Part shown: in pieces, positions 9,415 to 23,302 of the stretch
How positions within the stretch are numbered: the stretch's first letter is position 1
How the letters are laid out: each line of letters opens with the position of its first letter
Virus record (IMG/VR): IMGVR_UViG_3300030060_002228
Coordinates: 1-25,786 of that record
Length of the DNA stretch: 25,786 bases
Origin: a virus
Reading direction: 5' to 3' (one strand)
Made by a program: the position numbers and the translations under genes
The notes under the pieces: generated by a model
The model's input: only the letters and a program-made list of their open reading frames with translations
The model's database searches: none
Told to the model about the DNA's origin: nothing

Positions 9415-10287
9415 TTATGTGATTTTTTTAGGCGGGTCAACAGGCTTTTCTCTAGCTTCAATAGCGTCTTTAGAAGCTTTAAGCTCATCAAAATATCTAC
9501 CACAATACTCATACTCTCCCGTATGTGATATGTGATCCATACAATATAAGTGTATTTTACCACCCATAGCCGTCCATCTTTTACAAAATCCAAAGTCTTC
9601 ACCAAAATATTGTTTAGTTTCCGGATCATGTAAACACTCAAATAAATTATAAAAATTCTCTTTGTATACCTCTTCACGATTAACCAAGGTAGGTTGACGA
9701 ATTTCTAACTCAGGATATTGTTTTATCATCTTTTCAAGAGTTTCTCTTTTAATTAACATACAGCCAGTTGGTGCATGAGTTACCTCTGCTACACCATCTT
9801 CTACTACAACTTCATTCATACCTTCTACTTTTATAGGATAATGAAAGCCTGCTTTAGCTATATCTTTTTCGTCAGTAAGTTTTAATAAATCTGTTCTTCT
9901 TTTAATTTTACCCCAATCAATATATTTCATTGGGTAAGGTACAGCTATAACATCTTTATCTTTGTCTAACATTTTAAATATACTTTCAGCTTGAAAGTCT
10001 ATGTCTGAGTCTATAAATAATAAGTGTGTGTATTTACCTGGTTCATTTAAAAACTCAGATACAATTAAGTTTCTACCTTGTTGTACAAGAGATGATTTAT
10101 ATAAAGTAAAACTAACTAATATATTTTTTTGCATACATCTTTGTTGAAATTTTAAAAGTGCTTGTGTGTAATGTATAGAGCACTCACTATGTACAGGTGT
10201 GCCTACCATAATTCTGTATTTAGGTAATCCAAGATTTACTTCTGATTGACCTGTTAAATCAAATGTTATTGGTTCATTATTTTTCAT
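9415..10287 (-). CDS. GT-A fold glycosyltransferase (GT2-like)
   Basis: The protein has the look of a nucleotide-sugar-dependent GT-A glycosyltransferase of 290 residues. The N-terminal beta strand YRIMVGTPVHSE (24-35) leads to an LVQQGRNLIVSEFL helix and then the metal-binding DxD motif in LLFIDSDIDF (DSD at 93-95). Further on are APTGCMLIKRE (172-182) and GEDFGFCKRW (229-238), typical of the acceptor/catalytic half, where ED 230-231 may supply the base. There is no transmembrane segment or signal peptide, so it acts in the host cytoplasm. AAAGGA lies 7 nt before the ATG, and the gene overlaps the preceding GT4-like gene by 11 nt. The sugar and acceptor cannot be read from the sequence; its late-operon position suggests virion or host surface glycans. 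Confidence 0.82.
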   Translation of the reverse strand: MKNNEPITFDLTGQSEVNLGLPKYRIMVGTPVHSECSIHYTQALLKFQQRCMQKNILVSFTLYKSSLVQQGRNLIVSEFLNEPGKYTHLLFIDSDIDFQAESIFKMLDKDKDVIAVPYPMKYIDWGKIKRRTDLLKLTDEKDIAKAGFHYPIKVEGMNEVVVEDGVAEVTHAPTGCMLIKRETLEKMIKQYPELEIRQPTLVNREEVYKENFYNLFECLHDPETKQYFGEDFGFCKRWTAMGGKIHLYCMDHISHTGEYEYCGRYFDELKASKDAIEAREKPVDPPKKIT

Positions 10288-11218
10288 TTAATATTCCTTT
10301 CAGTAAATGTGTCCAAGTTATAGCTATCTTTGGCCAGCCATAGTAGGTATTAGCATATTCTACTTGCCTATTCAAATGCTGTATAATTGTTGGTTGGTCT
10401 AATGTTTTCTTTGCAGACTCAATACCTATTGCACACTTTCTAGCTAAGAAGTGATAGTTCTTGCTATGTGTAAGATACATTGGATACTCTGCTCCTGTTT
10501 CATACAAAGCTCCATAGTTTGATACAATACAATATAAACCTGCAGCCATAGCTTCTAACAATGATATACAAAATGTTTCTTCCCATATACTTGGATATAC
10601 AAACATATTATAATTTTTAAGATGTCTTTTTATCCATTCGTTATTTCTAAAACCAAGATAATTTACATTTGGTAATTTTTTTGCATGATCATACAGAGCT
10701 TGATATTCTTTATCATTAGCATCAGCAAAATCTTTGCCGTATACTTGACAATTAGAAAACACATCTAATTCTATCATAGGATCTTTTATTAATTCCATAG
10801 CACCAAGTAATACATTTAATCCTCTCCATGGTGTGCAATGATGTATAATTCTACATTTTTGTCTTTTGGGTTTATATATTTCTTCTCTAGGTTTTATATT
10901 ATCTATACCATTTTTTATAACCACACATTTTTCCGTAGGTAAATCATAATACTTGGTAAAATTTTCATAATTCCAATGACTGTTAAATACATACCAATCA
11001 TATTTATTATGATTTGTTTTATCCTTAAACCAAGGATGTATGTTTGGTTGATCCCAAGAATTTTTTTGCCATAATATATTTGGTTTGTTTTTTGATAAAG
11101 GTATTTTCTCTGGTATAGATGTTGTTATCTGTACACGATCTAACAATTTATTATCTACATATTTATATAAATAACTTAATTGTAATTCAGTTCCGCCCTG
11201 TGGACTATTTTTTTCCAT
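10277..11218 (-). CDS. GT4-like (GT-B fold) glycosyltransferase
   Basis: This 313-residue protein keeps the C-terminal half of a GT-B enzyme: HHCTPWRGLNVLLGAMELI (about 126-144), the beta strand ELDVFSNC, and the signature WEETFCISLLEAMAAGLY (about 212-229), where EE/E residues contact the nucleotide sugar in GT4 members. The N-terminus shows GGTELQLS (8-15), comparable to the donor/acceptor loop motif of GT4 proteins, but the N-terminal lobe is shorter than usual for the family (normally about 350-400 residues in total). The ATG at 11218 is preferred over an in-frame TTG at 11221. It overlaps the small gene upstream by 14 nt and the GT-A gene downstream by 11 nt, implying coordinated synthesis of the two enzymes. 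Donor and acceptor are unknown. Confidence 0.82.
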   Translation of the reverse strand: MEKNSPQGGTELQLSYLYKYVDNKLLDRVQITTSIPEKIPLSKNKPNILWQKNSWDQPNIHPWFKDKTNHNKYDWYVFNSHWNYENFTKYYDLPTEKCVVIKNGIDNIKPREEIYKPKRQKCRIIHHCTPWRGLNVLLGAMELIKDPMIELDVFSNCQVYGKDFADANDKEYQALYDHAKKLPNVNYLGFRNNEWIKRHLKNYNMFVYPSIWEETFCISLLEAMAAGLYCIVSNYGALYETGAEYPMYLTHSKNYHFLARKCAIGIESAKKTLDQPTIIQHLNRQVEYANTYYGWPKIAITWTHLLKGILNEK

Positions 11219-11420
11219 CAAATATTTTTTGCAATGCGTTCATACCTCTAGGAGATACATGTACTGTTGTATCTTGTTGAATATGATCCATTGTCGTAGC
11301 TGTATTTGGATCTGCAACATCCGCTTTCATTTCTTCTTCGTCTTTATATACTTTACCAGTCCATGTGTTTTTACAAATGGTTACCGTAGTGCAGTGTATA
11401 TTTAATATGTCTTTATCCAT
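11205..11420 (-). CDS. Small hypothetical phage protein (71 aa)
   Basis: This is a short soluble protein with an N-terminal beta-like portion (ILNIHCTTVTICKNTWTGKV), an acidic centre (DEEEMKADVAD) and a polar C-terminus ending MNALQKIFDGKK. There is no membrane segment and no motif I recognise. The evidence that it is real is the context: it starts inside the stop of the previous gene in an 8-bp ATGGATAA overlap and runs 14 nt into the GT4-like gene, and the frame is kept between real genes. It could be a small virion or regulatory protein. Confidence 0.6.
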   Translation of the reverse strand: MDKDILNIHCTTVTICKNTWTGKVYKDEEEMKADVADPNTATTMDHIQQDTTVHVSPRGMNALQKIFDGKK

Positions 11421-11763: not shown

Positions 11764-11927
11764 TAGTTCATAAAATAGTTAAAAGCATCTTGCTCATCCT
11801 TTAAATCTTTTTGAAAGCTAAAGTTAAGTTGATTTTTTATACTATCAAGAGATGCAAGAATTTGTCTTTGATTTTCTACTTCGTATTTGTTTTTTGGTTC
11901 TGGTATGTAAACAGTAATTTTAGCCAT
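11763..11927 (-). CDS. Small hypothetical phage protein (54 aa)
   Basis: A short open frame fills the gap between the GT32 gene and the 116-aa structural gene. It reads MAKITVYIPEPKNKYEVENQ at the start and ends with DLKDEQDAFNYFMN. It starts in an 8-bp ATGGCTAA overlap with the GT32 stop and stops in a TAATG overlap with the next start, both junction types used elsewhere in this operon, which is strong support for a real gene. The centre (about 15-45) is likely an amphipathic helix rich in Gln/Asn/Lys. No function is recognisable; small virion or assembly proteins are common at such positions. Confidence 0.66.
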   Translation of the reverse strand: MAKITVYIPEPKNKYEVENQRQILASLDSIKNQLNFSFQKDLKDEQDAFNYFMN

Positions 11928-12735
11928 TTTGTTTGTTCCAATCTAGGTTATCAATATCTATATCCCTAAACTCTTTATAGTCTCTTTTAAATATTTCTTC
12001 AACAGACATATCAGGATACTTTTTTCTATATGTAGCAACAACAGCATCATGAGTTTCATTACCCCATCTACCAGTCAACATATGTCTAGTTACAACGCCA
12101 GGATCATAATGTTCAGGCTGCACTTGATATTTTGATCTATCTAATATTTTAATTTTATAGTGACTATTTAAGTCTTCATACATTTCAGATAATAATCCAC
12201 AGCCAGCTGACCTTCTAACAAATACTTGAAAATCAGAATCAGGGTGTGTGCTTCTATTACGATGTATTTCAATAGGAAAATCTTTTAGTCTTAAAAAACA
12301 CTCCTCTATAACTTCTCTCCAAAACATACTTCTACCTGAAGATATAAGTAATGAGTTTTGTACAAGTTCTCTGTTGTTTGCTCCAGGTGCTAAATAAATA
12401 GTATCGTGTTCTAATTCATCATAAAAATTACGATAACAATATGTATCCATATCAGCATAAATACCACCTTGTTCAAACATAATTATATATCTTGCAATAT
12501 CTAATTTTACAATTTCAATAGGAAAATTATGCCATACATCCCACCAGTCTGGACAATATTTAAATATGTATGCATCTATGGTGTGATCACGCCAGCTTGT
12601 AAATCTCCATTGCCCTGGATGATGTCGTAACCAAGAAGTTCTACAAGGTTTCCAAATTGGATGCCATTTGTTTTTATCATCGGGCTCTAACTGTTGAATA
12701 AGTTTTGGTATTATTATTTTATTATCTTCTGCCAT
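11920..12735 (-). CDS. GT32-type glycosyltransferase with DxD motif (OCH1-like)
   Basis: This is a glycosyltransferase of the sugar-binding DxD (Gly_transf_sug, GT32) class of about 271 residues. The core signature KLDIARYIIMFEQGGIYADM (about 77-96) continues with DTYC, placing the metal-binding DxD at D95 and D97. N-terminal IIIPKLIQQ is the usual first strand of the Rossmann-like fold, and a Trp/His-rich region (WHPIWKPCRTSWLRHHPGQW) precedes it. In the C-terminal half, GRWGNETHDAVV keeps a late His. I start at the ATG at 12735; an in-frame ATG at 12747 is possible, and neither has a clear ribosome site, so translation may be coupled to the gp10-like gene, which it overlaps by 14 nt. GT32 enzymes move hexoses to glycans; the phage acceptor is unknown. 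Confidence 0.83.
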   Translation of the reverse strand: MAEDNKIIIPKLIQQLEPDDKNKWHPIWKPCRTSWLRHHPGQWRFTSWRDHTIDAYIFKYCPDWWDVWHNFPIEIVKLDIARYIIMFEQGGIYADMDTYCYRNFYDELEHDTIYLAPGANNRELVQNSLLISSGRSMFWREVIEECFLRLKDFPIEIHRNRSTHPDSDFQVFVRRSAGCGLLSEMYEDLNSHYKIKILDRSKYQVQPEHYDPGVVTRHMLTGRWGNETHDAVVATYRKKYPDMSVEEIFKRDYKEFRDIDIDNLDWNKQNG

Positions 12736-14641
12736 CTGGTTGAGCATCGATTCTTAAAGTGCCATATCTCCATGTTTCACCGGCTGCATCATTTTCTATC
12801 TTTATACTTATTAATCTTCCTCTAGCTCTGGTATCTATCTTATCAGTTGATGACGTAACTGTAAAGGGTCCAAGTGGAGAACTTGTCGATGTGTTGTTTG
12901 GATAATCGTTAATAAACAAAGTTACTTTTGAATTACCCGTTTGATATTTAAAGTCAGGTACAAATCTTCTAATAGATGAAAATATTTCACCATCATCAAT
13001 ATCTAAATCACCTGATCTTATAAAAGCTGTAATTGCAGTTGTTGTCCCACCAGCAACTTGATCGTTACCATCTTCATGAGAATAATAAGTGGTTGCGCCA
13101 AACTTGTTTGTTATACCTTGTATTGGAAAGTTTGGTGTGCCAGTTGCTGAGTATTCTGTTGCGTAAGGATTATCGAACACATAAGCATCAACATAAGTTG
13201 TTCTAGCTAAAGATCCTGTTGTCCACACACCTTCCGCGTAATTATATGTAACTACCCTATCTATTTGTGTAGATCCTGATTTAGGATAGAACCACATAAC
13301 TTCATCGTATAAAGAATTATATCCAGCAGCAATAGTTTGATTAGATCCAAAGTTAAGACCAAGATTATTTCCTTCGGTTGTAAATACAAAATCTTCAACC
13401 AAACAAGGTAAGGATTTTACTGTACCATCATACACAAAGAAACCACCTGCATCACCCATCCAATATACAGCACCATCTGCGTAAACAACTGCATGCTGTC
13501 CAATGCAGCCACAACCTGTTCCAACTTGTCTAACACTAAATGTAAAAGGTGGTCCAACAAATTGTATTACGTAAGCTGCTCTATCTGTAAGAACAAGTGT
13601 ATAGTCTTTTGCATTTATAGCTCCTCGTATCTCGCTGCCTGCGTCTAGTCTAAAAGTTCCTGCAGTGTTTGTTGCTGTTGGGTCATATGTATTTAAATCT
13701 TCTTGATTTGAGAATCTAATAAACATTGGATCTTGTGTTGCTGGATTACCAATTGTAGTCTCTGTTCCTAAATGAAATAGATGCCTGTCTCTATCAGATA
13801 CAAGTGTCATGATAGAAGCTGTCGGGTTATTCGTAGTTGCAAAACTTGATGTTGAAGTTGAAGCTCTAACTGTTCTAGGATTAGAAGCACCTGCGTTCCA
13901 AGTGAAAGTTTTACCATTGTGTATAGTTGCAACTAATACTTCACCAAAATTATCTAATGACCAATTACCAGGATCTAACGTTACAGCTGAAATTGTTCTT
14001 TCAGTTCCCCATGTGCCTGTGCTCCAAGTGTCAGTGCCGTAACCATATCCTGTTGTTTGAGAGGTAGGTCCTATTATTTCGTATGGATCGATAGTTGCAG
14101 CTCCTGCTGCAGTCATACCAGTTCCAGACTCAACAGCGGACATGGTAATTGTAAATGAGTTTGTAGCTACAGTTATAACCTCGTAAGTTTTTTCTGTGAA
14201 ATCTATAACAGCGTATCCTGTGGCTCCACCACCAGGTAAAGTCACTGAGGAAAAAGTTACGTATCTACCTACAGCTAAACCATGAGAGGTTTTGTTTATT
14301 GTTACTGTTGCATTGTTGTTTGTTGATGTAAAAGTAGCTCCTGATATGGCAGTTGCTAAAGGTGATATGTCATAGAAGTCATCACCATAATATAAAAATA
14401 AACCTTGAGATGTACCAATAACTGTATACTTCTCTCCAGCTAATGAAGTAAAAGCATGTTGATCTCTAGCTGCACCTGGTAATTCTTTTTGAGAAACAGT
14501 AAGTTGTTTCCAACCACCTATTTTTTCTGGTAGTCCCGTTCTAAATCTAACAAAGTCACCATCTATCCATTGACCTTCAGCGCCGGATGCTGTCTCTTGT
14601 TTATTAAAACCTGGTATGAACTGTAATTTTTTTAACGCCAT
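12722..14641 (-). CDS. Tail/head-completion protein, P22 gp10-like (phage stabilisation type)
   Basis: The 639-residue protein starts with FIPGFNKQETASGAEGQW and IGGWKQL, a beginning I associate with marine phage virion proteins of the gp10 (phage stabilisation) family. It then has repeated beta-rich blocks (IGTSQGLFLYYGDDFYDISP at about 75-94; FVGPPFTFSVRQVGTGCGCI and GQHAVVYADGAVYWMGDAGG at about 360-400), as expected for a beta-propeller or sandwich ring at the portal-tail junction. An Ig-like or insertion segment of Thr/Ser/Gly-rich beta residues sits at about 100-190. The C-terminal YGTLRIDAQPDGRR resembles the end strand of gp10. No hydrolase motif is visible. It is unusual in lying between oxygenase and glycosyltransferase genes. 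Family assignment rests on pattern recognition, not alignment. Confidence 0.68.
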   Translation of the reverse strand: MALKKLQFIPGFNKQETASGAEGQWIDGDFVRFRTGLPEKIGGWKQLTVSQKELPGAARDQHAFTSLAGEKYTVIGTSQGLFLYYGDDFYDISPLATAISGATFTSTNNNATVTINKTSHGLAVGRYVTFSSVTLPGGGATGYAVIDFTEKTYEVITVATNSFTITMSAVESGTGMTAAGAATIDPYEIIGPTSQTTGYGYGTDTWSTGTWGTERTISAVTLDPGNWSLDNFGEVLVATIHNGKTFTWNAGASNPRTVRASTSTSSFATTNNPTASIMTLVSDRDRHLFHLGTETTIGNPATQDPMFIRFSNQEDLNTYDPTATNTAGTFRLDAGSEIRGAINAKDYTLVLTDRAAYVIQFVGPPFTFSVRQVGTGCGCIGQHAVVYADGAVYWMGDAGGFFVYDGTVKSLPCLVEDFVFTTEGNNLGLNFGSNQTIAAGYNSLYDEVMWFYPKSGSTQIDRVVTYNYAEGVWTTGSLARTTYVDAYVFDNPYATEYSATGTPNFPIQGITNKFGATTYYSHEDGNDQVAGGTTTAITAFIRSGDLDIDDGEIFSSIRRFVPDFKYQTGNSKVTLFINDYPNNTSTSSPLGPFTVTSSTDKIDTRARGRLISIKIENDAAGETWRYGTLRIDAQPDGRR

Positions 14642-14663: not shown

Positions 14664-15260
14664 TTACTTAGCTTCAATTCTAAAATTAGCAGCTATTGAT
14701 ACTCTAGTTCCCTTTGATTTAAAAGGCACTACTTCGTGTTGGGTATTATAAGGGAAGATATACAAGTCTCCTTCTCTTGGAAAAAAACCTTGTCTACCAA
14801 TAGACAAAGGTGATTGATATGGAAAAACTTGAAAAACAAGAGAGCCAGGAAGACTGCTTTGTCCTATAAAATCTTCGCCTTCTTTAATTAAACCTTTTGG
14901 AATATCTGTATACAACACACTAGAAAAATTACATTTGGTGTGAACATGTGGAGGGTTGTAATCACCAGCCACCATGTAATTAACCCAAGCTCCACTAGTT
15001 ATTAATCTACCAAGAGGTCTACCATAAAATTTATGATATCCATCTCGATAAGCTTCTAAATATCCCATGACAATATCTTGATACTTTTGAACATCTATAT
15101 CGTACTCGTCATCTAAATGTCCTGCTAGATGTTTTCTTGCATCTTTCTTTTTATCTTTTTTACATAATTTTTTAAGAGCTTTTATTTCTTCTTTTGTTAT
15201 CCTAGTCTGCATAATGAAAGGACCAAAAAAAGGGAAATTATATTTTACTTCTTTATCCAT
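14664..15260 (-). CDS. 2OG-Fe(II) oxygenase, HxH type (array member 10)
   Basis: Last-transcribed member of the oxygenase array, 198 residues. The C-terminal double-stranded beta-helix shows the sequence GDYNPPHVHTKCNFSSVLYT with H105 and H107, the distal H175 in YIFPYNTQHEVVPF, and R186 in GTRVSIAANF, which would bind the 2-oxoglutarate carboxylate. The HxH plus distal His layout is that of the PF13759-like putative oxygenase group, not the HxD of prolyl hydroxylases, so a different metal environment is possible. The N-terminal part (1-75) is basic and helical (KKLCKKDKKKDARKHLAGHL), maybe an acceptor-binding element. It starts in an 8-bp ATGGATAA overlap with the previous gene. The substrate is unknown; no metal or cosubstrate evidence exists beyond the motif. 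Confidence 0.78.
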   Translation of the reverse strand: MDKEVKYNFPFFGPFIMQTRITKEEIKALKKLCKKDKKKDARKHLAGHLDDEYDIDVQKYQDIVMGYLEAYRDGYHKFYGRPLGRLITSGAWVNYMVAGDYNPPHVHTKCNFSSVLYTDIPKGLIKEGEDFIGQSSLPGSLVFQVFPYQSPLSIGRQGFFPREGDLYIFPYNTQHEVVPFKSKGTRVSIAANFRIEAK

Positions 15261-15786
15261 GTGCTAACCATTTTATTGAGAATCTAGGTATATCTTTTTC
15301 ATTAAAAGCATTTGCTCTATGTGGGTGAGATGCAGTAAACTGAATGAGTCTACCTTGTTTAAATGGCACCTTTTTATTTGTAGGTTTGTATATAAACTCT
15401 CCTCCTGTAACTTTACATTCAGGGTAATAAAGCATCAACACAAAACTTTCATCTGTATCAGATCCATCATTATGAAATGCACCATCCATATATTTAAACT
15501 GACAGTTACCTGTTATGTGATCTAAATCTAAGTTTGGTCTTTCTACATAATGTTTTATGTGTTCATGAAAAGCTCTTAATAAATTATTAGCAATGTTAAC
15601 GTTTGGACCTACACCATTTTTATTAAAAAAAGTTTGTCCCATTAATCTATGTCTACCCTGTGTTTTATAAGGCCAACCTTTTCTACCAGCAATATTATCT
15701 ATATCCCAGTTAGAATTTATTAAATCAAAAGCTAATTGATTTACCCAATGAATATCAAAAATATCATCATGCACTTTTATCGACAT
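15253..15786 (-). CDS. 2OG-Fe(II) oxygenase, HxD type (array member 9)
   Basis: A 177-residue protein with the P4H/PKHD-like core: GAFHNDGSDTDESFVLMLYY gives H105 and D107, then GGEFIY (128-133), then GRLIQFTASHPHRA with the distal iron His at H156 (H154 is also near), and R168 in PRFSIKW as the 2-oxoglutarate anchor. The double-stranded beta-helix fills the C-terminal two thirds. The N-terminal region (about 1-95) is less typical, with WPYKTQGRHRLMGQ preceding the core. It overlaps the orphan 114-aa gene by 20 nt and the next oxygenase by 8 nt. Family-level function, hydroxylation with 2-oxoglutarate, O2 and Fe(II), is well supported by the triad; substrate choice is unknown. Confidence 0.8.
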   Translation of the reverse strand: MSIKVHDDIFDIHWVNQLAFDLINSNWDIDNIAGRKGWPYKTQGRHRLMGQTFFNKNGVGPNVNIANNLLRAFHEHIKHYVERPNLDLDHITGNCQFKYMDGAFHNDGSDTDESFVLMLYYPECKVTGGEFIYKPTNKKVPFKQGRLIQFTASHPHRANAFNEKDIPRFSIKWLAHG

Positions 15787-16111
15787 AAATATTCCAATCT
15801 AAATGTTTCATCAAATCCTCTATATGAAACTCTTTCTTACCACTTTCAATCACGTGTTTATTTAAAGTTTCTGAGTCTAGTATAACCCATTTTGTTTTAG
15901 TTTCAAATACAACCTTATCTGCTTTTGATCCTGTGTGTATTCTTTTTTGAAAAAGATCATCAATTCTTTTACGCATGTCTCTTACATCAAATTTAAATGT
16001 TTGATTTGAATGACCTTTAATTATCCCTTTAATATTCCAACCCTCATTCTTTTTTGGATATTCTATATCCGTAAGGTTATTAGCAAATCTATCTACTATG
16101 TTAGCTGACAT
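15767..16111 (-). CDS. Unknown small protein inside the oxygenase array
   Basis: This 114-residue protein lacks the HxD/HxH and distal His pattern of every neighbour and has no recognisable domain. It is basic and helical overall: an N-terminal MSANIVDRFANNL, a central DVRDMRKRIDDLFQKRI (about 42-58), and a tail EDLMKHLDWNIYVDKSA. There is no membrane segment or signal peptide. It overlaps the downstream oxygenase by 20 nt and the upstream one by 11 nt, so it is in the same translational unit. It could be an adaptor, a substrate, a cofactor-delivery partner or an unrelated insertion; the sequence does not say which. It is the only array member that is not an oxygenase. Confidence 0.62.
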   Translation of the reverse strand: MSANIVDRFANNLTDIEYPKKNEGWNIKGIIKGHSNQTFKFDVRDMRKRIDDLFQKRIHTGSKADKVVFETKTKWVILDSETLNKHVIESGKKEFHIEDLMKHLDWNIYVDKSA

Positions 16112-16664
16112 TAAATGAAAAACTTATCCTAGGTTGTTTTGATAAATTAGGTTCTACTTTATGATAGAGCCATGCTGGAAATATATACAACATGTTTTCT
16201 TCTGCTGGTACAAACCAACTAGCGGAATTATACTCTGTAAATTTACCTTGATCATGAACTTTATAATAAGCATCCATTTGCGAAGGATTTTTAAATACTA
16301 TTCGCCCAGAATTTTTAGGGCAAGAAACATAGAATACTCCTGCAAGTTTATTAAAAGGATGACTGTGTGTATCATTATAGTCTTTGTAGTAATTTATATT
16401 GAACCACATATGATTTAAATCTGGTGTATCGTTACACGATAATACTTGTGTTAAATATGCTGTAGAATATCTTTTAATATTGCTTATCAAACTTGTTCCT
16501 TTTAAGTAATCTCTCACATCTCCACTTTGATAACCTGTTGGATTACTTCTTTGTCTAGACTCATTTTCTTTTGCATAATCTAAACAAAACTTTTGTATCT
16601 TTGGTAAGTCTTGTCTTAATTTAATTTGTAAAAGTCCTGTTCTAAATATATCTTGAAAGATCAT
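16101..16664 (-). CDS. 2OG-Fe(II) oxygenase, HxH type (array member 8)
   Basis: The 187-residue sequence has a clear PF13759-like core: DYNDTHSHPFNKLAGVFYVS gives H100 and H102, the strand GRIVFKNPS follows, then MLYIFPAWLYHKVEP contains the distal H168, and QPRISFSFN contains R179. The N-terminal 80 residues (DIFRTGLLQIKLRQDLPKIQ and a long middle with GYQSGDVRDYL) form the usual helical approach to the core. The ATG overlaps the upstream stop as ATGA, giving a 4-bp coupling, and the gene's end overlaps the orphan gene start by 11 nt. Expected reaction is oxidative hydroxylation; acceptor unknown. Together with the genes at 14664 and 19548 it defines an HxH subgroup in the array. Confidence 0.82.
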   Translation of the reverse strand: MIFQDIFRTGLLQIKLRQDLPKIQKFCLDYAKENESRQRSNPTGYQSGDVRDYLKGTSLISNIKRYSTAYLTQVLSCNDTPDLNHMWFNINYYKDYNDTHSHPFNKLAGVFYVSCPKNSGRIVFKNPSQMDAYYKVHDQGKFTEYNSASWFVPAEENMLYIFPAWLYHKVEPNLSKQPRISFSFNVS

Positions 16665-17332
16665 ATCTTTGGATAACCTAGCATAGGTCGTCCGTCGTAA
16701 AGATTTTTTGTGCCAAAAGGTCCCTTTCTATTATTGTAATGAAGAAAAACTTGTCCACAAAGTTTACCTTTGAAAGGTTCTCTCCAATGTTCTAAATCAC
16801 AACCAGAGTATAATAAAATATCTCCTGGTTCTAAATCTACAGCCACACCTTTATGTGCTGTATTTTTTATTTTAGTTTGCTCTCCAACTTTATCAAACGT
16901 TGTATCAAGTATATTGTTTTCTCCTGTTGGATCTATGTATATTGTCCAAGGATCGCCACCTAAATTTAGTGTGCCAGATATTTCACAACTAGCTCTGTCT
17001 TTGTGTCTAGCTAATTTTGATCCTGTTTCATACAATCTCGTATATGAATATGTCGGTATTAAATCTAAACCTGTATATTTTTTTATAGGTTTGATTGTCA
17101 TATCTAACAAAGTTTCCATAGCCCAATCACCATGTTTAGAATAAACACCTTGAACTTGTGAGTCAGAAAATGTTCCTATAAAAGTATTTTGAGGATAAGT
17201 GTATCTCTTCTGCAACAAATCTTTTACGACAGTTGCTTGCATAATAAGATAGTTGTAAACAAAATCACAGACTTTTGGGTCCACAATTTTTTTAACTACA
17301 CAGTATTTCTTTTTTTTAAACTCTTGCTTCAT
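16661..17332 (-). CDS. 2OG-Fe(II) oxygenase-like, HxD type with no clear cosubstrate Arg (array member 7)
   Basis: The ATG at 17332 overlaps the previous stop as ATGA and gives 223 residues; an in-frame TTG at 17347 is less likely. KLARHKDRASCEISGTLNLG contains H110 and D112, followed by GDPWTIYIDPTG. VDLEPGDILLYSGCDLEHWR carries the distal H182. Downstream, EPFKGKLCGQVFLHYNNRKG lacks the Arg normally found about 10 residues after the distal His; Lys residues sit near there. This may mean a substituted 2-oxoglutarate contact or altered activity. The wording DLEHWREPFKG...QVFLHY recurs in phage oxygenases in my experience, so the gene is probably functional. The Lys-rich N-terminus KQEFKKKKY is unusual. 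Substrate unknown. Confidence 0.78.
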   Translation of the reverse strand: MKQEFKKKKYCVVKKIVDPKVCDFVYNYLIMQATVVKDLLQKRYTYPQNTFIGTFSDSQVQGVYSKHGDWAMETLLDMTIKPIKKYTGLDLIPTYSYTRLYETGSKLARHKDRASCEISGTLNLGGDPWTIYIDPTGENNILDTTFDKVGEQTKIKNTAHKGVAVDLEPGDILLYSGCDLEHWREPFKGKLCGQVFLHYNNRKGPFGTKNLYDGRPMLGYPKI

Positions 17333-17874
17333 GTAAAATGTATCCAACCTGTTGCAATATATTTTTCTCTTGTCTTACTTATCTCACCTTTATGTGTATG
17401 TGTAAAGTCTGTCGGCCAAATAATTGTCACGCCTTTTTTAGCTCTTATTGTTTTCTTTTGATATTTAAAATGTGTACCTCCACCTGGCACAGTGTTTAAG
17501 TAAGTCATAAACACTAATAATCTATCACCATCTATAGTTTGCATTCTCTCATTGTGCCAACGTTTAAAACCTCCGTTTGGATTATAGTGTTGAATATTAA
17601 ATCCTTTGTGACAAGCATACCTAGCATGATCTTTTAATTCTGTATATTTATCTTGATATTTTAAAATAAGTTTATTGATGTGAACCATATAATCTTTTAT
17701 TGGATATATATTTTTAAAAGCACAGGAAAGGTCTGTAGATTCTTTTATAAGTGGATTTACTTTAAAACCAGCCTCACCTGGTCTTGTGTGTTCTATATTT
17801 TTATTAAAGTAACTAATTAAATCATCACACAACTTTAGTGGTGTTTTGTATTGCTGTATAAAATTACTTACCAT
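17329..17874 (-). CDS. 2OG-Fe(II) oxygenase-like, HxE variant (array member 6)
   Basis: In this 181-residue protein the core reads GGFKRWHNERMQTIDGDRLL, giving H107 and E109 in place of the usual Asp, then MTYLNTVPGGGTHFKYQKK, then GVTIIWPTDFTHTHKGEISK with H159 or H161 as the distal His, and REKYIATGWIHF near the C-terminus, where R169 or K171 could contact 2-oxoglutarate. The strand order agrees with a double-stranded beta-helix. HxE is an accepted but less common iron-site variant in this superfamily. It overlaps the upstream stop by 7 nt (ATATGGTAA) and the next start by 4 nt, so it is embedded in the coupled array. Its acceptor is unknown. Confidence 0.77.
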   Translation of the reverse strand: MVSNFIQQYKTPLKLCDDLISYFNKNIEHTRPGEAGFKVNPLIKESTDLSCAFKNIYPIKDYMVHINKLILKYQDKYTELKDHARYACHKGFNIQHYNPNGGFKRWHNERMQTIDGDRLLVFMTYLNTVPGGGTHFKYQKKTIRAKKGVTIIWPTDFTHTHKGEISKTREKYIATGWIHFT

Positions 17875-18440
17875 ATAGGTATATATCCTGTATTTATATC
17901 TTGTGGTCCGTATTTATTTTCCATAACTTTAAAATCATCAGCGTTTACCACATCAAACGCAATAGTAATTCTTTGTCCTTTAAAAGGAGATAATACATTT
18001 ACTTTGTGATGTTTGTAAGCTGGACCTAAATACATTTTACCAGCTTCATTTTTAACAGTAAAATCTTTAAATTCAGTTTCTGTATTTTTTGGATCAATAG
18101 ATAAATATCCGTGAAAAGTACAATCTTCATGATTGTGCCACGCTAATACTTCATCTTGTTTATGTAGATTTAACCAACATTGAAACCATAGCGGACCTTT
18201 CTTTTTGTAAAAACTTCTTATGTTTTTTTGCATTTCTTTAAATAATAAATAATAAAGCGAAGATCCTGCAGATAAAGAAACAAAACTATAATATCTAAAA
18301 AAACTAGTGGAGTTAATTTGTCTTAAGAACTGACCATAAGCAAAATGAAATCTATCATGTGCTTTGATAGCATCTTTAATTAATTTCTTTTGATTTTGTT
18401 TTACAAGTTTTATGTCGTAAAATTTATAATCTACTGCCAT
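17868..18440 (-). CDS. 2OG-Fe(II) oxygenase-like, HxHxD motif (array member 5)
   Basis: I chose the ATG at 18440 (190 residues, beginning MAVDYKFYD) because AAAGGG lies 6 nt upstream; an in-frame ATG at 18458 lacks a comparable site. The core is EVLAWHNHEDCTFHGYLSID, which contains H102, H104 and D106, so either H102-x-H104 or H104-x-D106 could hold the metal. GKMYLGPAYKHHKVNVLSPF carries distal H144/H145 and GQRITIAFDV gives R157 as the 2-oxoglutarate anchor. The N-terminal 75 residues are basic and aromatic (FFRYYSFVSL). The overlap with the previous gene is 10 nt. The exact ligand set cannot be decided without a structure. Membership in the fold is well supported by order and spacing. Confidence 0.75.
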   Translation of the reverse strand: MAVDYKFYDIKLVKQNQKKLIKDAIKAHDRFHFAYGQFLRQINSTSFFRYYSFVSLSAGSSLYYLLFKEMQKNIRSFYKKKGPLWFQCWLNLHKQDEVLAWHNHEDCTFHGYLSIDPKNTETEFKDFTVKNEAGKMYLGPAYKHHKVNVLSPFKGQRITIAFDVVNADDFKVMENKYGPQDINTGYIPIW

Positions 18441-18976
18441 GTTGGTCCCTTTCTCCAATGCACTAAAGTCTTTCTCTCTCCTTTTATAATAGGTTCTACT
18501 TTATGTAAAATAAAAGATGGAAATATTATCAAAGATCCAGGTTGATTAAAACCCTCAAACTTTAATATTTGATGTAGATGTAAATAAAAATCACCACCTA
18601 AGTATTCTTTTTCTGACACATTTACTAACGCTGTAAATTTTAAATCATAACTATCTAGTGGTTGTAAATCGACATGCCAGTTATATTCACCACTGTTTTC
18701 TGCTTTGTAAGTGTTATGATATATCCAATCTCTATCTACCGATGGATGTAATACAAAACCAAAATTAAAAGTATTTATTTCATTAACTCTATCATCTATT
18801 TTATTTATAAAAGGTTTTAAATGTTTAGCATGTACTATTTGTACATCACAAGTTTTAACAGTGTCTGCAGGATGATCACCAAGTGAGTCATCTGATTTAT
18901 TGTTTACTATTTTGTTTATCTCTTTTATTTCTTTCTTAGAGAAAAAATTTTGTTGAATATGCCAGGGGGTCTTCAT
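18431..18976 (-). CDS. 2OG-Fe(II) oxygenase, PKHD-like HxD type (array member 4)
   Basis: The 181-residue protein has a well-formed prolyl 4-hydroxylase-like core: GEYNWHVDLQPLDSYDLKFT with H101 and D103, the strand LGGDFYLHL (126-134), then PGSLIIFPSFILHKVEPIIK with the distal H158, and GERKTLVHWRKGP with R168. The C-terminal HWRKGP ending is close to the AWIGGP ending of the next oxygenase, suggesting these two are nearest relatives within the array. The N-terminal PWHIQQNFFSKKEIKEINKI is the typical helical start of the fold. The ATG overlaps the upstream stop as ATGA. A protein side chain (Pro, Lys, Asp or Asn) or a small molecule could be the acceptor; the sequence does not decide. Confidence 0.84.
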   Translation of the reverse strand: MKTPWHIQQNFFSKKEIKEINKIVNNKSDDSLGDHPADTVKTCDVQIVHAKHLKPFINKIDDRVNEINTFNFGFVLHPSVDRDWIYHNTYKAENSGEYNWHVDLQPLDSYDLKFTALVNVSEKEYLGGDFYLHLHQILKFEGFNQPGSLIIFPSFILHKVEPIIKGERKTLVHWRKGPTWQ

Positions 18977-19548
18977 TTAAAGTCAGGGCCACCTATCCAA
19001 GCAACTAAAGAATATCTAGTTCCTTTTGTAACAGGGGTGACTTGATGCAATACATAACTAGGAAAAACATTACAACAACCTTGATCTCGTTTACCCATGT
19101 CTGCTTTATCAGATAAATATAATTCTAAATCACCACCTTCGTAAGTTTTAGGATCTGATAATTGTAAAGTTACTGATAGTTTTCTAGCTGAACTACCTGC
19201 TGATCTATCAACATGTTTACCGTAGTGTCCACCAGGAGCTTGATACTCTGTAAATTGTATATCTTCCATAAAACCAAAAAGTTCAAAATGAAAATATTTA
19301 TCATTTAATTGATGTATGACATCTGTAAGTTTTGCATATATTTCTGGACATTCATTCCAAGATAACCAAGCTACTTTACTTTGTCTTACTTTCTTATCTT
19401 TTTTAGGTCTTAAAATATCTATGCTTGCAGCTTTTGTGCCTTTCTTTTTACAAAAATCAATTACCCATTTACATTGTTCTGGTGTAAGAACTTTTTCTTG
19501 CCAAGCCCAATGTTGTACTTTATCTGTTTTTAGTGCCCATCCACCCAT
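18973..19548 (-). CDS. 2OG-Fe(II) oxygenase, PKHD/PiuC-like (array member 3)
   Basis: This 191-residue protein is the most canonical member: HWAWQEKVLTPEQCKWVIDF opens the fold, PGGHYGKHVDRSAGSSARKL contains H112 and D114, LSVTLQLSDPKTYEGGDLEL gives the central strands, NVFPSYVLHQVTPVTKG has the distal H168, and TRYSLVAWIGGPDFK has R178 as the 2-oxoglutarate anchor. It resembles PKHD-type hydroxylases (PiuC/YbiX-like) in length and motif spacing, which supports Fe(II)- and 2-oxoglutarate-dependent hydroxylation. The start lies in a TAATG junction with the previous oxygenase. Cytoplasmic, no signal. The acceptor is unknown. Confidence 0.88.
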   Translation of the reverse strand: MGGWALKTDKVQHWAWQEKVLTPEQCKWVIDFCKKKGTKAASIDILRPKKDKKVRQSKVAWLSWNECPEIYAKLTDVIHQLNDKYFHFELFGFMEDIQFTEYQAPGGHYGKHVDRSAGSSARKLSVTLQLSDPKTYEGGDLELYLSDKADMGKRDQGCCNVFPSYVLHQVTPVTKGTRYSLVAWIGGPDFK

Positions 19549-20150
19549 TATAAATCCTTAAAATTATAAGCTAAACTTATTCTTGGTTTATCTTTTACCT
19601 GTTGTTCAACAGCATGTTCTAATGAAGAATCAAATATAACACACATACCTGGTTGTGGGTCTACAAGCATTTCTTTAAATGTAAGATCATTATACTGTTT
19701 ATATTTAATTCTAGACATTTGATTAACAGGGCTTTTGAAAGATACCCTAGCGTGATCACGTCCACCACTTAAAAAATATATAGTGCTTAATGTTGAAGCA
19801 CCATGAATATGATATTCTTGATAATCATTCTTTTCATAAATATTAAACCATCCTTCATGAGGACGTGGATTTAAATGTGTAACATCTATTTGTGCGTGAT
19901 TCGCATAACTCATGACTGCATCTATTACAAAGTTTTGTATAGGTAAAAAATCTTTATTATCAACAATATCAAAAGTTCCTAAAGTGTTATATGTATTTCT
20001 TGATAACCAATTGCTACCACCTTTTTTTGTTTTCTTTTTAATTTGATTACACTTCTTTACAAGTTTGTCTTCAATTAAATGATGTCTATGATTAATGGCA
20101 AAACCAAAGATAGATGCAAAGAAAGGTCTAACTTCTAGTGGTGGAATCAT
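19548..20150 (-). CDS. 2OG-Fe(II) oxygenase, HxH type (array member 2)
   Basis: This 200-residue protein belongs with the HxH subgroup: NDYQEYHIHGASTLSTIYFL has H114 and H116, SGGRDHARVSFKSPVNQ follows, then PQPGMCVIFDSSLEHAVEQQ with distal H179, and KDKPRISLAYNFKDL with R190. Its N-terminal half (1-100) begins MIPPLEVRPFFASIFGFAIN and contains a basic stretch, IKKKTKKGGSNW, before RPHEGWFNIYEKND. Compared with the 187-aa HxH enzyme at 16101, the core spacing is alike but the N-terminus differs, as expected for old paralogues. The ATG overlaps the upstream stop as ATGA. The reaction is inferred from family; acceptor unknown. Confidence 0.82.
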   Translation of the reverse strand: MIPPLEVRPFFASIFGFAINHRHHLIEDKLVKKCNQIKKKTKKGGSNWLSRNTYNTLGTFDIVDNKDFLPIQNFVIDAVMSYANHAQIDVTHLNPRPHEGWFNIYEKNDYQEYHIHGASTLSTIYFLSGGRDHARVSFKSPVNQMSRIKYKQYNDLTFKEMLVDPQPGMCVIFDSSLEHAVEQQVKDKPRISLAYNFKDL

Positions 20151-20629
20151 TTGTATTTAAAAACAATTGTGTATCTAATCTTATCTCTGAAAGGTGTTGC
20201 TTTGTGCCATACATCATCAGCAAAAATAACTAATCGATGTCTTTTAGGAACAATACCTTGTATCAAAGGGTCATTAATAAACAATGTTTCTCCTCCAAGA
20301 TCTACATCATGTTCATCGAAATCAACAGCATAGTATAAAAGTGTGGTAACATCTTTACCATCAGAATGATAATAAGGATTCTCTCCTGGTTCAAAACTAT
20401 TAATATATGCTCTAAATAATTTGCCTTTAGGTGTTAATTCTAATTTTTTAAAAGTTTTTATAAACGTTTTATAAATATACGAAGTTTTTTTTAATGTTGT
20501 GACTTTACCAGTGGGAGGAGTTTCTGGTCTATCAGACTCACCACGTTTAAATTTTAGCTTCTTAATTTCAGCTAGGATTTTTTTATTTTCGTCTTTTTTA
20601 AATATCTTATCTACTACTCTTAATGTCAT
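20147..20629 (-). CDS. 2OG-Fe(II) oxygenase, short HxD type (array member 1, first transcribed)
   Basis: The first and shortest array member, 160 residues. The core reads EPGENPYYHSDGKDVTTLLY with H88 and D90, then AVDFDEHDVDLGGETLFIND, then PKRHRLVIFADDVWHKATPF with distal H142, and RDKIRYTIVFKYK with R152. The N-terminal 70 residues are very Lys-rich (FKKDENKKILAEIKKLKFKR), which may simply be a helix preceding the double-stranded beta-helix. It follows the 130-aa gene after a 41-nt gap that includes a weak AAAGAGA ribosome site and a weak stem GCTTT/AAAGC, and this gap is the natural entry point of the array. No other promoter-like element is convincing here. Confidence 0.83.
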   Translation of the reverse strand: MTLRVVDKIFKKDENKKILAEIKKLKFKRGESDRPETPPTGKVTTLKKTSYIYKTFIKTFKKLELTPKGKLFRAYINSFEPGENPYYHSDGKDVTTLLYYAVDFDEHDVDLGGETLFINDPLIQGIVPKRHRLVIFADDVWHKATPFRDKIRYTIVFKYK

Positions 20630-20670
20630 TCTGTTCTCTTTCTATCAGCTTTCTAATTAAAAGCCAATGA

Positions 20671-21063
20671 CTAAGCTGGTTTATTCATTACCCAACTTTG
20701 TGATGCTTCATCCCATTCTTTTAAATAGCCATCTTCTTCATCTAAAGGTTGTGCAACAGGGGGTTCCCATTGACCATTAGTTCTATTTAAAGTCCATGAT
20801 GGGTATGGTTGACCTTCATGGAAACCATCCATTTCTTCATCATAAATCCAACCTGGACCTGGATAATTCATTCTAAAAGCTTTACTTTGATCTTCTGATT
20901 GCTCGCCTGTGATAGGATCAAAGTGTATGCCACCTTTTGTATTGTAGCTACATTGTCTTACGTTTAATCCTCTGGCTCTAATTTCTTCTTCAGTAATAGT
21001 ATCAGGAGCGTGGTTAACTCTTGTTACAACATTGTTTTCATCTAACTCTGCAAAATGTGCCAT
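20671..21063 (-). CDS. Conserved marine-phage virion/tail-associated protein of unknown function
   Basis: The 130-residue protein begins MAHFAELDENNVVTRVNHAP, which I recognise as the start of a small protein common near fibre genes in cyanophages and other marine phages. Its C-terminal part has the Trp/Pro pattern YPGPGWIYDEEMDGFHEGQP, PYPSWTLNRTNGQWEPP and a final SQSWVMNKPA. No signal, membrane segment or enzyme motif is visible. Family members are thought to be structural or fibre-linked, but I know of no proven function. It starts a few bases after the glycine-rich gene and precedes the first oxygenase, so it is placed exactly between fibre proteins and modification enzymes. Confidence 0.74.
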   Translation of the reverse strand: MAHFAELDENNVVTRVNHAPDTITEEEIRARGLNVRQCSYNTKGGIHFDPITGEQSEDQSKAFRMNYPGPGWIYDEEMDGFHEGQPYPSWTLNRTNGQWEPPVAQPLDEEDGYLKEWDEASQSWVMNKPA

Positions 21064-21068
21064 ATCTA

Positions 21069-22157
21069 TTACGCCTCACTAAACGCTACAGTCTGAGAAC
21101 TATCAGACGTTGCTGTTACTGTATAAATTTTAAATGATGGAGATGTAGAACTTGTTTGAGTTACACCTGGGCTAAAAGTTGCATTAAAGCTAGCAGGGAT
21201 TTTAATAACTACAACACCTGATCCGCCATTACCACCTGGGAATTGACCTGTGTTTGCACCTGTTGATGATCCTCCACCTGCTCCTTGGTTTGTTCCGCCA
21301 GCAGTTCCTGCTTGTCCATTTCTCCAAGATCCTCCGCCACCAGTTCCACCGGATCCGCCTGGGCCTTGGTCTTCTCGAGAGCCACCACCCCCGCCGCCAC
21401 CTCGCGTTACAGGTGATCCTGTGATTGAGTTTGTTAATCCATTTCCGCCTGGTCCACCGTTACCTGGTTGTGGTGATGCACCTGGAGGTGGTCCTGGAGT
21501 TGCGTCTGTTCCGGATGCCCCGGCTCCGCCGCCACCGCCACCTGGAAATGGGTTTTTATCTGTGTATCCACCTAAACCACCTGGGAATCCTTGACTTGGA
21601 TCACCTGGTCCTCTTTTAGATGGGTCTGCTGTTTTTGAAGATGGTGGGTTTTGATCGTCACCGTTTTCACCGGATCCAACACCGTTTCCACCTCCTGACC
21701 CACCTGGCCATCCTCTTCCTTCAGGGAAAGAGTTTGGAATTATTGGGTTAGCATCTCTAATTGTTGGTGGGTGAAAGGCTCCTCCGCCTCCACCTAATGA
21801 TGTAATAGTTGCAAATACTGATGGACTTCCATTGTTAGAATATCCAGTTGGTGGTGCTGGGTTTTGACCAGTAGTACCACCAGCTCCTACGACTAAAGAA
21901 TAATCTTTTCCTAAGAAAAGATCTAATTGTCCTGCAGGATCTTGAGAAGATGAGTTATCAGGTCCACCTGAATATTGAGATGAGTTCGCTGGATCAACCA
22001 AACGATACCCGCCGGCTCCTCCGCCGCCTCCCTGATTTGTACCGCCACCGGCGCCACCAGCTAAAACGAAAAATGAAATACCTTCAATTTTCTTTCCGGC
22101 CATAGTTAAACCGAAACCTTTTGCTGCTCCTGCACCGAATGATCCTAATATTGGCAT
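21069..22157 (-). CDS. Glycine-rich adhesin/tail-fibre-tip-like protein
   Basis: A 362-residue protein in which Gly, Pro, Ser and Asn dominate after the first 25 residues. Motifs include FFVLAGGAGGGTNQGGGGGA (about 29-48), SLVVGAGGTTGQNPAPPTGY, repeated PGG/GGPGGNG/GGSGG units, and a short conserved end GGNGGSGVVVIKIPASF before a beta-type C-terminus. This is the layout of phage glycine-rich domains, for example the receptor-binding adhesins of T-even-like phages whose poly-Gly runs fold as polyglycine-II sandwiches; I infer an adhesin or fibre-tip role. Pro residues next to Gly make it a conceivable target for the nearby hydroxylases, but this is speculation. AGGAGG lies about 9 nt upstream of the ATG. 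Local GC is clearly above the neighbours because of Gly/Pro codons. Confidence 0.78.
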   Translation of the reverse strand: MPILGSFGAGAAKGFGLTMAGKKIEGISFFVLAGGAGGGTNQGGGGGAGGYRLVDPANSSQYSGGPDNSSSQDPAGQLDLFLGKDYSLVVGAGGTTGQNPAPPTGYSNNGSPSVFATITSLGGGGGAFHPPTIRDANPIIPNSFPEGRGWPGGSGGGNGVGSGENGDDQNPPSSKTADPSKRGPGDPSQGFPGGLGGYTDKNPFPGGGGGGAGASGTDATPGPPPGASPQPGNGGPGGNGLTNSITGSPVTRGGGGGGGSREDQGPGGSGGTGGGGSWRNGQAGTAGGTNQGAGGGSSTGANTGQFPGGNGGSGVVVIKIPASFNATFSPGVTQTSSTSPSFKIYTVTATSDSSQTVAFSEA

Positions 22158-22178
22158 GCTCTTTCTCCTCCTAATTTA

Positions 22179-23249
22179 TTACGCAAACTGTGTTTGTGCT
22201 GCAAGCGCTGTAAACGCAGCGTCACCAGTTTTAATAATTGTATATGTATAAGCATCGACAGAGTTAGCATTACCAGCTGTTGTCGCAGAACCGCCTGACC
22301 ATTCTGGAGTTACTGAACCTCCGTCAATTGTAACTGCATTATTGTAATAAGGTGTACCAGTGTTTGTTGTCAAAAAGGCAACAGTGATTGACTCACCTGT
22401 ATCCATAATATTGTTTAAAGAGTTTGAACCATCACCTCTGAAGTTAACTGTGTAGTTACCTGCTGAAGCAGATGTGTGGTAAAGAACAGCTTGTGTGATT
22501 ACGTCATAGTTAACTGTTCCAGTTGTACCTGTTGCAGCGATAGTTATTTTTTCTGCTAGTTGCTGAATTTTACCAGCGCCTAGAGTTACTCTTCCTAAAC
22601 CTTTTCCATTAATATTTAAATCAATGTTTGTGTCACCACCAGTTGCAGCAACACTTGGACCTGTACCTGTAGCTTGGTTAGTTACAGAGATCTCGTTAAC
22701 TGCTGAACTAGTTTTTACAAATTTAATGTATTCGTTATTTGAATCATCTTCTAATGCTCCACCAGTGTCGATAATAACGTCATTACCATTTGTATCTAGT
22801 ACGCCTGATAATTGTGGTGTGATGTCAGATGATAAATCTGTGAAAGCAGTATCAACAACATTAGTTCCATCTGAGAAAACCATTTTTGTAGTTTTGTCAG
22901 TTGTTGCCCAAGTAACTCCAGAACCTGAAGAAGTTTTGAAAGTTACAGTGTAAGCACCAGATGTTCCGTTTGCTACAATGAAAGTTTTTTCAATTGAATC
23001 AGGAATAGTAACGTTAACGTTAGTCGATAAAGTTCCTGTTAATTTGATTACTGCGTTTTTACCGTTTGATACGGCACCGTTAGAAAAAGTAAGTGCTCTG
23101 TTAGCGTTCGTTAAGTTGAACGTATCATATCCACCGATTGCTTGTTCTACGATTAATAAGTTTGTGTTAGTTATTTGACCCCATGTTCCCGAGTTTTCAC
23201 CGGTTGCTTGTACAGTCAATTTTAGACTTGCTGATGTCGAGTTTGCCAT
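22179..23249 (-). CDS. Tail-fibre/virion structural protein
   Basis: The 356-residue protein starts MANSTSASLKLTVQATGENS and continues GTWGQITNTNLLIVEQAIGG, an N-terminal block seen in many marine phage fibre or structural proteins. The remainder is beta-rich with Thr/Ser/Asn/Gly (NVTIPDSIEKTFIVANGTSG, LNINGKGLGRVTLGAGK), with no catalytic motif. It fits a trimeric fibre stem. The ATG has AAGAGGA about 10 nt upstream, and a promoter candidate lies in the 81-bp gap before it, the largest gap in the late block. The downstream neighbour is the glycine-rich protein, consistent with a stem-then-tip order. Confidence 0.78.
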   Translation of the reverse strand: MANSTSASLKLTVQATGENSGTWGQITNTNLLIVEQAIGGYDTFNLTNANRALTFSNGAVSNGKNAVIKLTGTLSTNVNVTIPDSIEKTFIVANGTSGAYTVTFKTSSGSGVTWATTDKTTKMVFSDGTNVVDTAFTDLSSDITPQLSGVLDTNGNDVIIDTGGALEDDSNNEYIKFVKTSSAVNEISVTNQATGTGPSVAATGGDTNIDLNINGKGLGRVTLGAGKIQQLAEKITIAATGTTGTVNYDVITQAVLYHTSASAGNYTVNFRGDGSNSLNNIMDTGESITVAFLTTNTGTPYYNNAVTIDGGSVTPEWSGGSATTAGNANSVDAYTYTIIKTGDAAFTALAAQTQFA

Positions 23250-23273
23250 AATTTTTATATCCTCTTATTACGT

Positions 23274-23302
23274 TTTTTATTAAAATTTATATGGGCTGTC
23301 AA
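23274..23302 (-). promoter_or_regulatory. Candidate late promoter before the tail-fibre gene
   Basis: On the minus strand a perfect TTGACA (23297-23302) is followed by a 17-bp spacer and TAAAAA (23274-23279), a 4/6 match to the -10 consensus. Upstream of the -35 lies an A/T-only tract including the 16-bp palindrome AAATTTAATTAAATTT (23308-23323), which could act as an UP-like element. It would allow the fibre, glycine-rich and oxygenase genes to be transcribed separately from the upstream structural genes. Same -35 hexamer as the helicase promoter candidate. Confidence 0.38.

Follow-up and report, generated by a model that had tools for sequence, protein, structure and literature searches.

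A ten-gene array of putative 2-oxoglutarate/Fe(II) oxygenases beside an adhesin-like gene in a hypervariable tail-gene island of an HTVC023P-type pelagiphage relative

HTVC023P-type pelagiphages carry clustered genes for 2-oxoglutarate (2OG)/Fe(II) oxygenases, which a 2022 paper described as metabolic genes with a 'ferrochelatase' partner (PMC9599517), and multi-gene 2OG clusters in this phage group are therefore already known. Here, we analyzed a 25,786-nucleotide stretch of viral DNA (bases 1-25786 of the 28,620-base IMG/VR virus record IMGVR_UViG_3300030060_002228; hereafter the window), in which ten of the eleven minus-strand genes located between positions 14664 and 20629 (o1 to o11) belong to 2OG/Fe(II)-oxygenase families of the double-stranded beta-helix (DSBH) type. 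This array resembles the loci of HTVC023P, HTVC027P and 023Pt_psg01 in phage group, in neighborhood and in that several non-orthologous members of the 2OG family lie close to tail genes (PMC9599517). It differs from them in number, as the HTVC023P-type isolates carry three to four 2OG genes per locus, and in interpretation, as we read the window's genes as an adhesin-linked array. The suggestion of a sequence-only reading that this is an undescribed system can consequently not be upheld. What appears to be new, relative to the literature that we found, is the length of the array, its place in an adhesin-linked hypervariable island, the tailoring enzymes that accompany it, and the finding that the ferrochelatase label is wrong.

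Cultured phages provide further points of comparison. Cyanophage Syn9 possesses seven consecutive DSBH genes, gp48 to gp54, labeled in order as 2OG, gp49, 2OG, DNA endonuclease V, minor coat protein, DNA endonuclease V, and ferrochelatase. Like the array in the window, this run includes a member of PHROG 2954 and two proteins labeled endonuclease V, but it also has JmjC_2 and DUF6445 types, which the window lacks. A run of five DSBH genes is present in HTVC008M. The large and diverse 2OG set of S-SCSM1 comprises 24 genes genome-wide (PMC9602691); its runs 240-243 and 248-251 flank tail-fiber genes, the former directly preceding them. Unlike the window, however, S-SCSM1 is a 229 kb myovirus with scattered genes, and its longest consecutive run is four in the stretch examined. 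Among bacterial proteins, the PKHD/prolyl-4-hydroxylases (PiuC, Sbal_3634, and the Pseudomonas putida prolyl-4-hydroxylase [P4H]) share the fold and the HxD...H site with o9 and o5; no solved structures come closer to o9 or to the o5 model. Their identity to o5 is about 11-15%, and their substrates are not transferable. These bacterial enzymes are single chromosomal enzymes.

The assignment of the ten genes is carried by profile searches and by a predicted fold. All ten proteins match one of the families phrog_81, phrog_61, phrog_2696, phrog_274 or phrog_2954. The Pfam profiles PF13759 and PF13640 match most of them: six at E <= 4.6e-5 (the products of the genes starting at 14664, 16101, 17329, 17868, 18973, and 19548), that of 20147 more weakly (2.8e-4) and that of 18431 weakly (0.08), while the proteins encoded from 15253 and 16661 had no Pfam match. 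None of the ten matches PF05721, a profile that had been suggested for this purpose. We accordingly regard the ten as predicted DSBH 2OG/Fe(II) oxygenases, nine of them well supported and o2 (15253-15786), assigned by its PHROG match and motif only, the least secure. The sole non-oxygenase in the array is o3 (15767-16111), so that the array consists strictly of eight plus two oxygenase genes around it; ten minus-strand oxygenase-like genes with one unrelated gene between them had been proposed from the letters of the DNA, and the PHROG and Pfam profiles, together with the AlphaFold2 (AF2) fold of o5, bear this out. Adjacent genes overlap by 1-28 bases throughout, and the array hence reads as one operon. 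Its ten oxygenase genes are intact and, placed inside a tail-gene operon, are apparently transcribed together.

Iron-site signatures had been claimed for all ten proteins, and here the outcome is divided. The HxD/E...H site is found in six: o2 (HND...H; phrog_274 type, 6e-18; H105, D107, and H156 invariant in 6 sequences), o5 (16661-17347; HKD...H; PHROG 2954, 6e-47), o6 (17329-17874; HNE...H; PF13640 type, 2e-9, phrog_61 3e-32), o8 (18431-18976; HVD...H; phrog_61 type, 1.5e-18; 33% identity to o9 over 124 amino acids, E=4.5e-14), o9 (18973-19548; HVD...H; PF13640 1.4e-15), and o11 (20147-20629; HSD...H; phrog_274 type, 2e-16, PF13640 2.8e-4). Among these, o9 is prolyl-4-hydroxylase/PKHD-like, with the PKHD-type hydroxylase 3dkq, PiuC, and the P. 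putida P4H (4iw3) as relatives in the PDB. The other four, of the PF13759/phrog_81 type, have an HxH...H site instead: o1 (14664-15260; HVH...H, H105-x-H107...H175 and R186; PF13759 3.7e-14, phrog_81 6e-28), o4 (16101-16664; HSH...H; PF13759 3.3e-21), o7 (17868-18458; HNH...H; phrog_2696/PF13759-like, with phrog_2696 2e-34, phrog_81 2e-10 and PF13759 4.6e-5, and aligning with the HxH group), and o10 (19548-20150; HIH...H; PF13759 4.6e-19). The HxH of these four proteins aligns with an HxH in the solved relatives 3bvc and 2rg4 (noted as relatives of o4), and HxH...H plus the following arginine are invariant in eight relatives of the PF13759-type members. We did not accept the motif by itself as proof of family membership: a loose iron-site pattern is present in 99.7% of family members, yet 44% of shuffled sequences and 26% of other genes match it as well, and it is therefore the profiles and folds that bear the claim. 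In profile comparisons of o2 and o11 with o8 and o9, a short C-terminal match was all that was seen.

Structure prediction, which had been proposed for each protein, was carried out for o5 and o3. The AF2 model of o5, built from a 45-sequence alignment, has a mean predicted local distance difference test (pLDDT) score of 92.4 and the 2OG-oxygenase fold. It yielded 618 PDB matches at E<=0.001, headed by the P. putida prolyl-4-hydroxylase and PHD-type enzymes; the best 50 are all 2OG-type by name except for two trypanosome editing complex chains (8fnc, 8fni), and no ferrochelatase fold is among them. H115, D117, and H187 of o5 are invariant among 45 homologues, and no match to the ferrochelatase Pfam profile was obtained in 45 PHROG 2954 members. 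A profile-profile comparison of o5 with o9 revealed no sequence homology, so that the fold comparison is decisive here. We thus reject the name 'ferrochelatase' for o5; judged by the modeled fold, PHROG 2954 is a 2OG-oxygenase family. The site residues read HTD in Syn9 gp54 and the S-RIM32 'ferrochelatase', and HKD in HTVC023P and HTVC008M; Syn9 gp54, HTVC023P gp67 and the HTVC008M protein are further 2OG proteins that carry the label. Two studies took such genes as real ferrochelatases partnering 2OG genes (PMC9599517, PMC11561400; the latter naming phrog2954), and we found no paper in the open-access literature correcting this. An o5-type domain is also contained in the 453-residue S-SCSM1_248 (31909-33270 of locus L183), for which pfam13640 and pfam05721 regions have been described (PMC9602691).

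A second label is affected as well. PHROG 274 ('DNA endonuclease V') and PHROG 2297 ('DNA endonuclease') match array members. However, o11, Syn9 gp51 and Syn9 gp53 match PF13640, conserve H-x-D...H, and have no match to an endonuclease family profile in Pfam. A T4-type endonuclease V identity of o2 and o11 was rejected on these grounds, and by its profiles and motif the label appears to sit, in o2, o11 and Syn9 gp51/gp53, on 2OG-oxygenase-like proteins.

The ten proteins are strongly diverged, with pairwise identities of 18-29% (best pair 29%, median 23%), and eight of them have their nearest relatives in other phages (35-62%), closer than their array mates. Recent tandem duplication is consequently rejected, as had been anticipated from the sequence. 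The median ratio of non-synonymous to synonymous substitution rates (dN/dS) is 0.15 over 2214 pairs of relatives, pairs that are not independent, and the oxygenase genes of the relatives are therefore under strong purifying selection. The view that selection acts on each gene of the array holds to this extent for the relatives, the window's own genes having no relatives in the range usable for the measurement.

How exceptional is a run of ten? We surveyed 182 loci, often cut short by contig ends, that had been picked because they have either a related oxygenase or a related tail gene, and defined run length as the number of same-strand 2OG genes with one interruption allowed. These loci hold about 620 members of the 2OG superfamily in runs of zero to ten: length five occurs 21 times, six and seven four times each, eight twice, and ten is represented by the window. 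Locus L092, too, has ten oxygenases at the homologous position, encoded there on both strands (a fusion of DUF6817 to a 2OG oxygenase domain was seen there at 5871-6758). With arrays of five to eight recurring in related contigs, ten genes in L092, seven in Syn9, and five in HTVC008M, the array is not exceptional as had been supposed; it is the extreme of a graded distribution rather than unique.

The surroundings of the array indicate how it evolves. It lies between a conserved gene at its upstream edge (22179-23249, minus strand like all genes of the window given here), which is 86-94% identical in L090, L092, L096, and L100, and a conserved virion structural protein at its downstream edge (12722-14641; phrog_3287 1.5e-88), 87-90% identical in L087-L100. 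At the homologous position, the relatives have 2, 4, 8 or 10 oxygenases that are 25-47% identical to those of the window. Judged from these comparisons, the array forms a hypervariable island flanked by conserved tail genes, and it is replaced wholesale among phages with about 90% identical flanks. Its 5' end is formed by a gene for a glycine-rich adhesin-like protein (21069-22157; 28% Gly, 10% Pro; phrog_2295 3e-38) and by a small tail-associated gene (20671-21063; phrog_7759 4e-24) that is a regular 5' partner of 2OG arrays: phrog_7759-type genes occur in 54 loci, and in 52 of these no more than two genes away from a 2OG gene. The small protein o3 is likewise a companion of such arrays, each of its 22 homologues, in 22 loci, adjoining a 2OG gene. 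We found no o3 relatives among isolate phages; its AF2 model (pLDDT 85.6) had no PDB match at E<=0.001 and no significant viral structure match, and a weak similarity to RecU was not accepted as an identification.

The sequence-only reading had also called for a check of synteny with fiber genes. When glycine-rich is defined as at least 25% Gly, 70 such proteins are encoded in 56 loci; in all 70 cases the gene lies 5' of the nearest 2OG gene, and in 68 it is at most three genes away. None of 2000 within-locus permutations placed the two as close, but since the permutation holds locus and gene number and leaves the shared tail-module context free, part of this effect reflects position in the tail module. 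In a separate collection, the association was seen in 8 of 14 loci. HTVC023P itself encodes glycine-rich proteins alongside about four 2OG genes. The glycine-rich proteins are enriched in proline (6.4% vs 4.3%) and depleted in D, E, and K.

Other modification enzymes accompany the oxygenases. Sulfotransferases are encoded in or beside arrays at 17 loci, carbamoyltransferases in the islands of L090, L096, and L140, and a tryptophan halogenase in that of L068 (3648-5171); S-adenosylmethionine (SAM) methyltransferases and adenosine 5'-phosphosulfate (APS)-kinase-like and cytidylyltransferase-like proteins are also found in or beside arrays. Tryptophan halogenase genes were observed at most two genes from 2OG genes in the pelagiphage-type contigs L068, L037, L054, L074, L075, and L093, and region 6629-9455 of L096 has split carbamoyltransferase, sulfotransferase, APS-kinase-like, and cytidylyltransferase-like genes among its 2OG genes. 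Hydroxyl (or amino) groups are the typical targets of carbamoyl- and sulfotransferases, and this fits with hydroxylases that would provide the first step.

We propose, with moderate confidence, that the main role of the array is in a tailoring island for the tail adhesin or other tail proteins, with the adhesin or neighboring fiber proteins as the presumed substrate. The array enzymes would be made late, together with the tail proteins, and each would hydroxylate particular side chains of the adhesin or its neighbors, the prolines in the Gly/Pro-rich repeats of the adhesin being the first candidate target and Asn, Asp, Lys or Arg the alternatives. In some phages, sulfotransferases, carbamoyltransferases or glycosyltransferases encoded in the island might add caps to the resulting hydroxyls. 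Swapping enzymes together with adhesins would alter the chemistry of the binding tip and so allow the phage to track changes of the host receptor; a stabilized polyglycine fold is an alternative benefit. Protein hydroxylation is favored by the resemblance of o9 to PKHD/PiuC and to the P4H acting on EF-Tu, and by the P. putida P4H, crystallized with EF-Tu, as the top match of the o5 model; our searches of the open-access literature turned up no publication on the hydroxylation of phage virions. A bolder version, which we offer tentatively, is that hydroxylases, together with sulfo-, carbamoyl-, methyl-, and glycosyltransferases and halogenase, make up an exchangeable multi-enzyme island that writes combinatorial modifications on the glycine-rich adhesin and diversifies receptor binding by chemistry beyond sequence.

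Several observations weigh against the tailoring proposal. Four of the ten putative oxygenases lack the canonical carboxylate ligand; the dN/dS ratios were taken from relatives and not from the window's own genes. Among the 74 arrays with enough upstream sequence, a glycine-rich gene is found within four genes upstream in 41, leaving 33 without one, and some islands carry collar-type adhesins instead (L097). No glycine-rich gene was found near the seven-gene run of Syn9 in the 8.4 kb examined, and the 2OG genes of S-SCSM2R sit amid sugar-biosynthesis genes; not all phage 2OG genes, therefore, need act on adhesins. Adjacency to the adhesin may also be partly a recombination hotspot effect, because tail-fiber loci generally draw foreign genes. 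Taken to its end, this argument would make the island a gathering place for 'moron' genes in which each oxygenase has a separate role, as the very high turnover and the mixed strands in L092 would suggest. Yet a single enzyme superfamily dominates the surveyed loci, o3 adjoins a 2OG gene without exception, and the other accessory genes found there are often modification enzymes too, so that we deem this account improbable.

The enzymes could instead alter host surface glycans or lipid A, or the sugars of virion glycans, and thereby cause superinfection exclusion or receptor change, which we judge unlikely, though less so than the hotspot account. Glycosyltransferase genes do lie nearby in the window, the S-SCSM2R genes are intermixed with KdsA/KdsB and glycosyltransferase genes, and o10 has a weak match to PF05118. 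The nearby glycosyltransferases, however, keep an identity of 77-97% where the oxygenases turn over, and the two groups are thus not exchanged together; moreover, the end of the locus with which the array is linked is that of the adhesin and not that of the glycosyltransferases. Modification or repair of DNA or nucleotides, by AlkB/TET-like base oxidation followed by glycosylation, is very improbable. The 2OG superfamily includes AlkB and TET, DNA repair was suggested in earlier papers, and phrog_274/2297 carry DNA-enzyme labels, but the array proteins have no AlkB or TET_JBP Pfam matches, among solved structures o9 is closest to protein hydroxylases, and the proteins labeled 'endonuclease V' have 2OG motifs. 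An auxiliary metabolic role, be it a 2-oxoglutarate drain or sensing, or heme and iron metabolism with a phage ferrochelatase, has been proposed (PMC3037559, PMC9599517, PMC11561400) and draws on the wide occurrence of 2OG genes in marine phages. The heme argument falls once the 'ferrochelatase' is recognized as another 2OG oxygenase; for a 2OG drain, ten diverged enzymes that keep their active sites would be unnecessary, and the position in a tail operon is left unexplained, so that this role strikes us as about as doubtful as the hotspot account.

With respect to its origin, the window encodes a helicase with 64% amino acid identity to its counterpart in Pelagibacter phage HTVC027P, and its gene order agrees with that of HTVC023P, HTVC027P, and 023Pt_psg01; a tail gene is also common to them. 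These sequence comparisons identify the window as a probable fragment of an HTVC023P-type pelagiphage relative, and from such relatives we infer SAR11 as its host; L191 and L192, two loci with o5 homologues, stem from SAR11 single-cell genomes. The interior of the array gave no sign of a chimera when examined, and the upstream junction is backed by contig L181, with 80% DNA identity across 20475-23287. This truncated contig, in which the first 52 amino acids of o11 are 98% identical, was the only find of a viral-contig scan with o11 as the query; equivalent scans yielded no relatives for o9 or o7. Directly past the window, in the source record (G000, locus L182), the minus-strand open reading frame 45-569 near tail genes has a short stretch translated as X (ambiguous bases), probably a scaffold gap. 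Downstream of the island, a group 1 glycosyltransferase (10277-11221; PF00534 7.6e-17; 77-97% identical in relatives) and a weakly glycosyltransferase-like phrog_1574 protein (9415-10287; phrog_1574 1.1e-35, Anp1 0.06) are conserved. Another glycosyltransferase with a DXD motif (11920-12747; Gly_transf_sug, PF04488 1.1e-10) has no relative among the fetched loci while most of its neighbors are about 90% conserved, and it is therefore probably a recent insertion.

Collectively, these findings indicate that cultured phages, too, have long oxygenase arrays, which went unnoticed under wrong gene names, and the renaming of PHROG 2954 undercuts the published heme and iron readings of SAR11-phage biology (PMC9599517, PMC11561400). 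Few accessory genes are as common in ocean phages as those for 2OG oxygenases, and the published accounts that we found demonstrate no function for them. For these genes, the island context supplies a specific and testable candidate substrate, the neighboring tail adhesin.

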